The notes under the pieces: generated by a model
Database searches by the model: none
What the model was told of the DNA's origin: nothing
The model's input: the letters and a program-made list of their open reading frames with translations, nothing else
Program-made: the position numbers and the translations under genes
Shown: positions 32,770-50,545 of the stretch, one piece after another
Layout of the letters: each line of letters starts with the position of its first letter
Position numbering within the stretch: position 1 is the first letter of the stretch
Assembly: GCF_024499055.1 (NCBI RefSeq)
Contig: NZ_CP071249.1
Span: 744,001-808,000 of the forward strand
Reading direction: 5' to 3'
Length of the DNA stretch: 64,000 nucleotides
Source: Turicibacter bilis
Lineage (GTDB): Bacteria; Bacillota_I; Bacilli_A; MOL361; Turicibacteraceae

Positions 32770-33675
32770 CTATTTATTTTTATAACGTCGGTTTTCTTTA
32801 CGATTAATGTAAAGACCGGCTAAGATCGTAATAATAACTGAAATAATAGAAACAATTAAAAACCCGTATTTATTCTCTTGGAATGGGACGGGAACATTCA
32901 TTCCCCAGAAACTTGAAACGACGGTTGGAACCGCAATAATCACTGAGACGACCGTTAAAAATTTCATGACCATATTCAAGTTATTTGAAATAATTGTTTC
33001 AAAGACATTTAAGTTGCTACTTAAGATGTTTCCATAAATTTTTGACATGTCAATCGCCTGTTTATTTTCAATGATAACATCTTCTAACATTTCAGCTTCC
33101 GGTGTATCATTTTTTTCAAGCTTGACTAAACGTTCTAATACGATTTGGTTTGAACGAAGGGATGAAGACATGTAAACTAAACTTTTTTGTAAGTCCAACA
33201 TTTCGATTAAATCTTCATTTTGTGGTGAGTGACGTAAGGCACGCTCAACTTGGCTACTCTTACGTTCAATAACACGTAAATAACCTAAGTATTGAATCGA
33301 GATCGTATATAAAATTTGATAAATATGTGCATTGATACTTGTTGTTGTGACTTTTAAGCGTTTGCTAAATACATTTAACTCTTGTGTACATAATGTTAAA
33401 AGCATGCGATCTGTTTTAACAATCCCAAGTGGGACAGTTGAGTAATACGTATCAGACTCAAATGAGACAGGAACGTCGACGATAATCATCGTAAAGTTAT
33501 CTTCAATTTGAACACGTGAACGCTCTTCTTCATCAAGTGCTGTAATAACTGTTTCATACTCTAAGTCATGTGCTTTACATAATGTTTCTACTTCTTGATG
33601 GGTGGGATTAATTAAGTTAACCCACTCAAACCCGCCACTTGTTAGTGAATTAATGAAATTCACTTCACTTCTCAT
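32770..33675 (-). CDS. corA: CorA-family magnesium/divalent cation transporter
   Basis: Pentameric Mg2+ channel-like transporter. About 301 residues: a cytosolic N-terminal domain and long stalk helix, then two C-terminal membrane helices. The selectivity motif GMN is in SFWGMNVPVPFQ right after the first helix (FLTVVSVIIAVPTVVSSF). A basic tail (NRKENRRYKNK) ends the protein. I start at ATG 33675, which has AGAGGTGA; upstream in-frame codons overlap a leader ORF and lack a site. Confidence 0.93.
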   Translation of the reverse strand: MRSEVNFINSLTSGGFEWVNLINPTHQEVETLCKAHDLEYETVITALDEEERSRVQIEDNFTMIIVDVPVSFESDTYYSTVPLGIVKTDRMLLTLCTQELNVFSKRLKVTTTSINAHIYQILYTISIQYLGYLRVIERKSSQVERALRHSPQNEDLIEMLDLQKSLVYMSSSLRSNQIVLERLVKLEKNDTPEAEMLEDVIIENKQAIDMSKIYGNILSSNLNVFETIISNNLNMVMKFLTVVSVIIAVPTVVSSFWGMNVPVPFQENKYGFLIVSIISVIITILAGLYINRKENRRYKNK

Positions 33676-33694
33676 CGAATCACCTCTTATAGTC

Positions 33695-33769
33695 TCACAC
33701 GATGTCATCGACACTTGGTGACATCCATGTGATTAATTTAATTGTCCGTATGGGAATGGAATCTTCCAC
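33695..33769 (-). CDS. possible corA leader peptide
   Basis: A GTG at 33769, seven bases after GGAGGTG, opens a 24-codon frame (VEDSIPIRTIKLITWMSP...) ending at TGA 33695-33697, 19 bases before corA. Its ribosome binding site is part of one arm of a perfect 9-base inverted repeat whose other arm lies within the same frame. This is the layout of a translation-coupled leader; expression is not proven. Confidence 0.4.
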   Translation of the reverse strand: MEDSIPIRTIKLITWMSPSVDDIV

Positions 33770-33780
33770 TTGATGTCACC
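33717..33780 (-). promoter_or_regulatory. inverted repeat in the corA leader
   Basis: Minus-strand GGTGACATC (33772-33780) and GATGTCACC (33717-33725) can pair exactly around a 46-base loop. The first arm overlaps the GGAGGTG site of the leader frame. No resemblance to the M-box riboswitch was found. Confidence 0.5.
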
Positions 33781-34099
33781 TCCAACTGTCTCATAAACAT
33801 AGTAAAAGAACAAAAACTAGTATTAAACTTAGTCTTTGCACCCTTTAAAGAAATATAACAGGATTCTTTTCCTTTTCAAGTATACTACTAATCATTAGAA
33901 TTGACCACCTTCAGACGTAAGTTTTTTCACCTGTCGACAAATATAATGGAAACGAGTGCGAAATTTTTATAAAAAGCGTAAATTTCGAGAAATTCCTATG
34001 AGAATTATAAAATAAAAATCGGATATTATTAACTTTTTCAGACAATTTCGATATAATGAATATATTGTAATTATGGACATTACGAAAGGATGTGACAGT

Positions 34100-34846
34100 T
34101 TGAATAAAGTAAATATTCCCGAAAAACTTGTACCTGAGGTAACGAGTAACTTGCGTAAAAATTTCGTTCGTGTCCCAGATGTGATTCGAAATGCAAGTGG
34201 AATCCGTATCTTTGGTAAACGATTAAAATCATTTATCTTTACAACAGACGTAGCAATTATTAAAAATACAAATGCAGACGCGGTCATTGCCGTCTATCCA
34301 TTCACTCCACAACCAACGATTACTCAAGCGATCATGTCCGTTTCAGACATTCCTGTTATTTGTGGTGTTGGTGGAGGACTAACACATGGAACGCGTTCAG
34401 CAAACATTGCCTTACATGCCGAATTCCAAGGTGCTATTGCCGTCGTTTTAAATGCACCCACACCTCGTGAAACCATTGAATACGTTAAGGAAACGATTGA
34501 TATTCCTGTCGTCGTGACAGTTGTTTCTGAACATACAGATGTTCAATCTCGTATTGATGCTGGAGCTGATATCTTAAATGTCAGTGGTGGTTCTAAAACA
34601 GCTAGCATTGTGCGTAAAATTCGCCAACAATACCCAACCATTCCGATTATCGCAACTGGCGGACCAACCGATGAATCAATTCTTGAAACCATTGCAGCGG
34701 GAGCAAATGCTATTACCTATACCCCCCCAACAAATGGAGAATTATTTCGTGTAAAGATGGATCATTACCGTGAAATTGAAAATAGCGTTCAACAAGATGA
34801 ACCCATTGATAAAATTCACGAAGAAGAGTTAGCTTTAACTGAATAA
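34100..34846 (+). CDS. TIM-barrel protein, phosphate-binding type, function unknown
   Basis: About 248 residues with an eight-fold alternating pattern. Glycine-rich segments are VICGVGGGLTHGTRSANIAL (middle), DILNVSGGSKTASIV and IIATGGPTDESILETIAAGANAITYTPP (C-terminal phosphate-binding loops). It resembles flavin or phosphosugar-binding barrels such as nitronate-monooxygenase and HisF/ThiG-like folds, but has no catalytic signature I can name. TTG at 34100, eight bases after AAAGGA, is a better start than the upstream ATG. It stands alone with its own terminator. Confidence 0.6.
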   Translation: MNKVNIPEKLVPEVTSNLRKNFVRVPDVIRNASGIRIFGKRLKSFIFTTDVAIIKNTNADAVIAVYPFTPQPTITQAIMSVSDIPVICGVGGGLTHGTRSANIALHAEFQGAIAVVLNAPTPRETIEYVKETIDIPVVVTVVSEHTDVQSRIDAGADILNVSGGSKTASIVRKIRQQYPTIPIIATGGPTDESILETIAAGANAITYTPPTNGELFRVKMDHYREIENSVQQDEPIDKIHEEELALTE

Positions 34847-50321: not shown

Positions 50322-50385
50322 TGGAGTTAGCATTAACGAAAAATTGAGGCAGCTAAAAAAAGCGTCTCAAAAAAGTCGATAATAT

Positions 50386-50545
50386 CCCTGTCCTTTTGCC
50401 TGAGAGATTGAGCATCACTGCCTTGCCCCTTCGGCGCCTAATCAATAGGTCTCTCCAGAGTTCCGTCCACTTTACAGTCCTCACTTGCTAACAAGTACCT
50501 GAGAGTATGACTCCTTCGGTGTTCCCATAGGGAAACTCTTCTATA
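50386..50545 (-). ncRNA. tandem glycine riboswitch
   Basis: On the minus strand two aptamers follow each other. The first (50497-50545) shows ACACCGAAGGAGTC and CTCTCAGGTA. The second (50386-50465) shows ACTCTGGAGAGACC, GCGCCGAAGGGGCAAGGC and CTCTCAGGCAAAAGGACAG. These are the conserved core segments of the glycine (gcvT) riboswitch. A terminator follows at 50293-50321. With a transporter downstream, either glycine-on or glycine-off control is possible; sequence alone does not decide. Confidence 0.95.

Follow-up and report, generated by a model that had tools for sequence, protein, structure and literature searches.

Gamma-proteobacteria are known to sense Mg2+ through leader peptides, mostly in connection with Rho. 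In Bacillota, translation attenuators of the ermC type combine a leader peptide that stalls ribosomes in a drug-dependent manner with alternative pairing of RNA arms, and their output acts on the downstream ribosome site. When Mg2+ is high, the upstream open reading frames (uORFs) corL and mgtL are translated efficiently, which lowers the transporter through Rho (available part of PMC11552253). corL lies in the corA leader of E. coli and Salmonella, where a stem covers the Shine-Dalgarno sequence of the uORF itself, alternative folds compete, and Rho-dependent termination takes part in the output (PMC11552253). The mgtL peptide has an acidic N-terminus with several prolines, and its conserved m1G37-dependent codons (CCC/CCU and CGG among them) are proposed to sense Mg2+ via TrmD, its Mg2+ response requiring trmD (available part of PMC6335274). 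The gene behind it, mgtA, encodes a P-type ATPase, is controlled by PhoP and is Rho-dependent in Salmonella. In the Salmonella mgtQ-mgtB system, the 8-codon mgtQ frame lies inside an operon, just before an Mg2+ transporter gene. Its acidic residues 2 and 5 lower translation of the short frame, a ribosome lingering on arm 1 leads to 2:3 pairing and mgtB translation rises, and a 3:4 stem that masks the mgtB site is experimentally supported (available part of PMC8092293). Two RNA elements are also relevant: the M-box (ykoK, RF00380), a Mg2+ riboswitch of Bacillota leaders, and a published corA RNA motif whose occurrences, in the available part of PMC6429828, are confined to gamma-proteobacteria and metagenomic DNA. 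Leader peptides are an established form of control for Mg2+ transporters; what is new here is that putative ones, with an acidic start, precede corA in Bacillota and Bacteroidota. The literature searched, supplementary files aside, gave no report of a leader peptide before corA in either phylum, and the word corA is absent from the main text of PMC11109978 and PMC8632094.

We analysed a 64,000-nt stretch of the Turicibacter bilis genome (the window), which comes from an assembly of one contig of 2.79 Mb, and compared its corA locus with those of four other Turicibacter genomes. The five genomes represent maybe three lineages, and series of five values are given below in the order window, G004, G001, G002, G003. 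corA (32770..33675, minus strand) runs from ATG 33675 to 32770 and is the sole CorA-family gene found in the genome; each of the five genomes has a single such gene, the G003 copy being split across two contigs. The protein matches Pfam PF01544 with 173 bits and TIGR00383 with 132 bits, and since the latter is below the equivalog cut-off of 200.75, Mg2+ is a putative substrate of this CorA. A longer CorA starting at GTG 33714 was rejected, as the ATG 33675 start and its ribosome site form a 21-nt run identical in four species. MgtE was not found in the window genome and is present in one of the five Turicibacter genomes (G002:C1:1218277-1218651), which also has the most divergent leader stem. 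No corA relatives were found in viral contigs.

A sequence-only reading of the window had placed a 24-codon frame with its own ribosome site ahead of corA, and we could confirm it. The frame (MEDSIPIRTIKLITWMSPSVDDIV; 33695..33769, minus strand) opens with GTG 33769 and closes with TGA 33697-33695, leaving 19 bases between the stop and corA ATG 33675. Its Shine-Dalgarno sequence GGAGGTGA (33776..33783, minus strand) is identical in all five genomes, overlaps the 5' arm of a potential stem (region 1, 33780-33772), and keeps a constant spacing to the GTG although the intervening bases vary. Conservation in relatives, proposed as a check on the frame, extends to every genome of the genus compared: the frame is open in 5/5 (22–26 codons) despite a one-base indel, stops 14–25 nt ahead of corA and encodes a peptide that starts with MEDSIP. 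Openness alone is weak evidence, as 22–45% of shuffles per species are equally open. Frames +1 and +2 were rejected as the coding frame, since neither has an ATG or GTG with a ribosome site and +1 hits stops just past the conserved part.

Conservation is concentrated at the start of the frame, in an invariant block of codons 1–11 (33737..33769, minus strand) that contains E2, D3, P6 and the rare codons TCC, CCC, ATA and CGG. All five genomes agree in the first 28 bases (codons 1–9 plus one base of codon 10) and in codon 11. In the four complete loci the identical run reaches 33 nt, the longest in 3.9 kb aligned; the runner-up is the 21-nt run at the corA ribosome site and start. Sequences between the promoter and the leader drift among the five genomes, but the leader start does not. 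Within corA, fourfold sites differ by 46–60% pairwise among four species, and all four use the same codon at 83 of 241 same-residue positions. The absence of synonymous change in the block fits codon constraint and RNA constraint alike.

Each of the five Turicibacter genomes has a single copy of the block, invariably at corA, and 0/3 other genomes of the order have it. A synonymous-codon search of 395 sampled genomes of the class returned the five Turicibacter and one non-equivalent match with a different peptide, and viral contigs gave 0 exact matches. Such a block might be bound, as DNA or RNA, by a protein or small RNA and overlap the frame by chance, and a near-palindrome within it (TGGAA-GA-TTCCA) would suit that purpose. 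We nevertheless consider this highly improbable: there is only one copy per genome, the run shared by five species begins exactly at the start codon and extends beyond the palindrome, and the acidic-leader pattern seen elsewhere would be left unexplained.

That pattern emerged from a survey of uORFs before corA in distant bacteria. We defined an acidic uORF as a frame of 7–45 codons, at most about 300 nt upstream of corA, in which residue 2 is D or E and positions 2–5 include two or more acidic residues, a definition that covers the Turicibacter leader in 5/5 genomes. Among 21 distant corA loci, eight have a uORF with a ribosome site that ends at most 60 nt from corA, and each of these eight includes one uORF with at least two acidic residues in positions 2–5 (L015 and L016 each also list one without). 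In the control, 74 other ORFs of those loci yielded eight such uORFs; one has D or E at residue 2, and two early acidic residues occur in none of them. For a larger set, the ribosome-site requirement was dropped and 10 plasmid-collection loci were added. Acidic uORFs then precede corA in 16 of 31 loci, versus 13 of 152 other ORFs from the same loci and the window (Fisher test, P-value 1.6e–7), with a mean of 2.5 and a maximum of 7 per 31 in shuffled upstream regions; the criterion was derived from part of these 31 loci, which hence are not a clean test set. Loci tested after the criterion was fixed gave 2/3 (L109–L111) and 0/1 (L007).

Altogether, 18 of 35 distant loci have an acidic uORF (10 Bacillota, 8 Bacteroidota), and with close relatives among the loci (L013/L014, L015/L016, L023/L024, L028/L029, L102/L104/L109) we estimate perhaps a dozen independent cases. 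From the 23 loci of the corA search, L009 and L030 were excluded because the match starts at a contig edge; L008, a partial match, was also excluded. From the plasmid collection, 13 of the 40 matches listed (341 records) were taken, about one per genus and Listeria twice. The uORFs of the Bacteroidota loci L023, L024, L028 and L029 went unnoticed until the 31-locus count. Bacillota examples are MEDSCGRSHIRK, MEDSCGHSHIQQ, MDDPRDHK, MDDPRLCK, MDGDPYSN, MDADPSSRHP and MEGDPRGR; those of Bacteroidota are MDDSIPLE, MDDSNPRT (twice), MDDGPYHR (twice) and MDDYH (three times). The distant acidic leaders resemble that of Turicibacter in that relatives share the first codons and diverge after them. Their stops lie 9–88 nt ahead of corA (13 loci).

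The 15 misses among the 31 loci include L027 and L100. In L027 (Spirochaetales), the peptide MTEDDTGP has T at residue 2 and so falls outside the count. L100 (Listeria monocytogenes) has a 35-codon uORF that ends 17 nt before corA and lacks an acidic start; it contains SDPGPHRSIH and is possibly a leader that has diverged. Within the family of Turicibacter, a different genus (G005/L007, corA 38% identity) has no acidic frame of at least 7 codons before corA, only the 4-codon MEEH, possibly by chance. E. coli MgtL (MEPDPTP...) has an acidic start of the kind defined here. The E. coli uORF before corA is ysgD of K-12, which we take to be corL. Its peptide, (M)DTPSRYWLTILSSRINS, starts at TTG and begins DTPSRYW; it is acidic at residue 2 but has only this one early acidic residue, and it is not counted.

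Three of the distant loci have an M-box ahead of the acidic uORF (L012:2560-2734 with the uORF at 2802; L015:2608-2771 with the uORF at 2830; L016:2607-2769 with the uORF at 2828). The M-box ends about 60 nt before the uORF, and a terminator-like hairpin, read by eye, lies between them. The M-box ties corA of these loci to Mg2+, and they apparently carry two Mg2+ controls in tandem. In Turicibacter, the first reading of the sequence had seen no M-box, and this holds: the RF00380 covariance model is unmatched in the window and in the whole window genome.

We also compared RNA folding across the distant loci. Start regions of corA are more folded than other start regions of these loci (median –22.8 versus –16.6 kcal/mol, P-value 0.003; 17 loci versus 30 others, the 17 being the 16 above and L027, without L109 and L110), and ribosome-site pairing alone is not significant in the same comparison (P-value 0.077). 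Of 13 other acidic leaders, three have a stem of the type found over the Turicibacter leader ribosome site that reaches the 5% level of shuffles, and five have one at the corA start. A common fold is therefore not apparent; the feature that these leaders share is the acidic start.

The second property of the Turicibacter block is its codon content. TCC, CCC, ATA and CGG make up 5, 8, 7 and 3% of the codons of their amino acids across 46 ORFs that were defined mechanically in the window, and in the leader they form the run TCC ATT CCC ATA CGG. The best five-codon rarity of the leader is equalled by 3 of 16,654 five-codon segments, and its best eight-codon rarity is unexceptional (97 of 16,516 segments, in 20 of the 46 ORFs); hence the rare cluster is short and local. 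Neither CCC-ATA nor CCC-N-CGG occurs in the 46 ORFs, where few are expected (45 CCC and 18 CGG codons in total), and none of these ORFs has CCC in its first 15 codons, where again few are expected. In the list of tRNAs, which is incomplete (150 of 339 candidates scored; tRNA-Ile(GAU) is not in it), tRNA-Pro(UGG) is the sole reader of CCC, a single tRNA-Arg(UCG) serves CGG, and both of them have G37. A pattern for a CCG, GGG or CGG anticodon followed by G37 gave one match, which has another anticodon and is no tRNA according to ARAGORN.

TrmD is present in all five Turicibacter genomes. Loss of m1G37 makes ribosomes stall at CCN and CGG (available part of PMC8384417), and the +1 shift of tRNA-Pro(UGG) is fastest at CCC-A (available part of PMC4519876). 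A hypothetical +1 slip at CCC-A of the leader would terminate the peptide just before region 2 in all five species. Taken together, the codons make a CCC-A slip or an m1G37 link of the leader suggestive; the CCC/CGG pair is not common to the other corA leaders inspected.

The same rare cluster could point to attenuation by amino acid or charged tRNA supply (Arg, Pro, Ile), with ribosomes stalling when the tRNAs for CCC, AUA and CGG are scarce and Mg2+ playing no part. The leader, however, has no run of a single amino acid, there is no evident reason to link such a supply to corA, the terminator scan found no terminator in the leader, and the trait common to other corA leaders is acidic residues. 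We therefore rate this explanation as very unlikely.

Three regions of the leader can pair in alternative ways (all minus strand). Region 1 (GGTGACATC, 33780-33772) lies over the leader ribosome site. Region 2 (GATGTCACC, 33717..33725) pairs with the leader Shine-Dalgarno sequence (1:2) or with region 3 (GATGACATC, 33701..33709), a possible competitor (2:3). The perfect dyad formed by GGTGACATC and GATGTCACC had been noted in the first reading; the exact 9-base pairing is there in the window, but its exact sequence is not conserved. G004 and G003 each have one G-U pair and G001 has one mismatch, while G002 has a different stem of 13 pairs, nine of them in common with the window and four of these nine with both bases replaced (register set by hand, one-base shift allowed). 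What is kept in 5/5, as opposed to the exact sequence, is a stem that covers the ribosome site of the leader itself. Judged by the window sequence only, 1:2 pairing is fairly unusual, with 51 of 2000 dinucleotide shuffles as good (29 of 2000 with a shorter target), and the 1:2 duplex energy is matched by 29, 2, 14, 0 and 14 of 2000 shuffles in the five species. Thus, the second half of the leader varies between species yet retains pairing to the ribosome site. RNAalifold on the plain alignment includes stem 1:2 with most of its pairs counted as broken in G002; it shows a both-sided change in only 1 of 43 pairs, in another helix, and its covariation term (+3.12) is against the consensus.

A block that is invariant at every base, synonymous positions included, and is enclosed by a stem with changes in both arms is also the pattern expected of a riboswitch-like RNA sensor, in which the invariant 28–33 nt would be the ligand core closed by 1:2 and the frame would be incidental. 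RNAalifold places two small hairpins inside the stem (GUGGA/UCCAU and UCC/GGA), and the gamma-proteobacterial corA motif has been proposed as a riboswitch candidate (available part of PMC6429828). On the other hand, these inner hairpins never vary, so that they are without covariation support; the start codon, the Shine-Dalgarno sequence and their spacing are kept despite changed bases; the frame is open in 5/5; and other corA leaders share the acidic peptide start, not this DNA. The leader has no match in Rfam, which also has none for the E. coli corA region and hence offers no test. Overall, we find an RNA sensor of this kind unlikely.

Pairings downstream of stem 1:2 are less uniform. The 2:3 pairing is equalled by 267, 79, 69, 817 and 80 of 2000 shuffles, and is moderately supported by these comparisons in three of the five species, not in the window species or G002. 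A 3:4 stem over the corA ribosome site is equalled by 760, 191, 1475, 1484 and 416 of 2000 shuffles; as it is no better than shuffles, we rejected a 3:4 stem that masks the corA site in Turicibacter. The corA Shine-Dalgarno sequence AGAGGTGA (33680..33687, minus strand) resembles that of the leader, and region 2 could pair with it as well (2:4). This pairing is equalled by 20, 105, 945, 486 and 381 of 2000 shuffles; it was rejected as a general feature, as its support is confined to the window species and, at a weak level, G004.

We then modelled ribosome occupancy by partition-function folding that ignores sterics. With the start region covered by a ribosome, the predicted 2:3 probability is 0.96, 1.00, 0.47, 0.98 and 0.78, and an initiating ribosome would thus favour 2:3, the geometry published for mgtQ-mgtB (available part of PMC8092293). 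With a ribosome at codons 7–9, 1:2 and not 2:3 is restored in 5/5, and hence the model agrees with early drop-off more than with pausing at CCC/CGG. The predicted accessibility of the corA site shifts little between states in four of five species, G002 being the exception. Geometry and folding models make it plausible that translation and folding of the leader are mutually dependent, as had been proposed from the sequence.

A simpler output would be plain translational coupling, whereby ribosomes that end the leader 14–25 nt before corA raise initiation there and nothing is sensed. The leader stop is near the corA ribosome site in 5/5, and with the 3:4 stem unsupported, coupling is the simplest output that is left. 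It does not account for the 28 invariant bases, the conserved rare codons or the stem over the leader ribosome site, and the other acidic corA leaders end as far as 88 nt from the gene (9–88 nt, 13 loci). As a full explanation, coupling therefore appears decidedly unlikely.

For transcription, two promoter-like sites lie upstream of the frame on the minus strand. In 5/5 genomes, the leader frame is flanked by a conserved promoter-like site on one side and corA on the other. The nearer, TTGAAA-16-TATATT with TG before the second hexamer (33852..33879), scores 10/12 in the scan; the one further upstream, TGGTCA-17-TATACT (33879..33907), scores 9/12 and its TATACT is kept in 5/5. The scan itself is little proof (13 hits in 2.5 kb versus 9.0, sd 3.4, in shuffles). 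AATCCTGTTATATT at 33865-33852 is one of five identical runs of at least 14 nt in the four aligned loci, and the –35 element of the 33852..33879 site varies between species. A promoter downstream of the frame, which would have told against the leader, does not appear: the scan has no minus-strand hits from the end of the frame to corA. We also noted an AU-rich hairpin, GCAAAGACUA / UAGUUUUUGU, on the way from the promoter-like sites to the leader (~33840-33800, minus strand); a U-rich stretch follows it, and the hairpin is partly retained in relatives according to the RNAalifold output.

No Rho gene was found over the cut-off in any of the five Turicibacter genomes, one of which is 85% complete. 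Weak matches (best 38.6 bits) are partial, most likely represent F1-ATPase subunits, and were rejected. Attenuation of the Rho type should hence not be assumed in Turicibacter. A consensus scan gave no terminator-like site on the minus strand between the promoter-like sites and corA. With neither Rho over the cut-off nor a terminator found, the output is most likely translational.

Overall, we suggest, with a probability of about 0.52, that the leader is a cis-acting leader-peptide control of corA that acts most likely via translation, through Mg2+-sensitive early elongation and without Rho. The element itself (frame, invariant codons and stem 1:2) is well supported by comparison of the five sequences, while Mg2+ as the signal, the direction of the response and the way the corA site is freed are what we infer. 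At high Mg2+, ribosomes would elongate through the frame and leave, and stem 1:2 would close. When Mg2+ is low, E2 and D3 at the acidic N-terminus, followed by P6, might destabilise or slow the nascent chain while it is still short, and a pause or a +1 slip could be added by the rare CCC-AUA-CGG, whose CCC and CGG would be read by tRNAs of the TrmD-substrate type (G36-G37). Ribosomes would then keep occupying the start region of the leader, region 2 would pair with region 3 and stay off the corA Shine-Dalgarno sequence, and corA translation would rise.

The likeness to enterobacterial Mg2+ leaders claimed by the sequence-only reading in fact goes further than was proposed, since the acidic N-terminus is found in MgtL and in many corA leaders; the Rho-dependent output, in contrast, cannot simply apply to genomes with no Rho over the cut-off (5/5). 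With mgtQ-mgtB, the leader shares a short frame with early acidic residues (D2 and E5 in mgtQ, E2 and D3 in Turicibacter) just before the transporter gene, predicted alternative stems 1:2 and 2:3 and, as far as we infer for Turicibacter, translational control. It differs from mgtQ, which has 8 codons and lies inside an operon, and in its 3:4 stem, which is at shuffle level, and no shared sequence is noted (available part of PMC8092293). With corL-corA it shares a uORF in the corA leader and, by prediction, a stem over the uORF's own Shine-Dalgarno sequence and competing folds, but not Rho (available part of PMC11552253). The acidic start with proline and the CCC and CGG codons recall mgtL, although the Turicibacter leader has one proline. 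The leader peptide and alternative arm pairing also resemble ermC-type attenuators, in which stalling depends on a drug; in Turicibacter the 3:4 arm is unsupported.

Acidic uORFs before corA in other Bacillota and in Bacteroidota would form a widespread class to which the Turicibacter element belongs. More tentatively, and at somewhat less than even odds, acidic leader peptides may constitute a general cross-phylum Mg2+ sensor of corA (in Clostridia, Turicibacter and Bacteroidota, and in weaker form in enterobacterial CorL) that relies on the fragility of ribosomes on an acidic chain at low Mg2+, sometimes behind an M-box; in Turicibacter it would be purely translational and CCC-AUA-CGG may read m1G37. 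If this is true, sensing by early elongation would be a general rule of bacterial Mg2+ homeostasis, extending to a genus without recognisable Rho.

Two further features of the window were noted. A glycine riboswitch aptamer (RF00504, 65.1 bits) lies at 50378-50468 on the minus strand and is the window's only Rfam match at the gathering threshold. The divergent neighbour of corA (34073-34846, plus strand) encodes 257 aa whose family matches are all sub-threshold, and it contains two 17-nt runs that are identical across four species.
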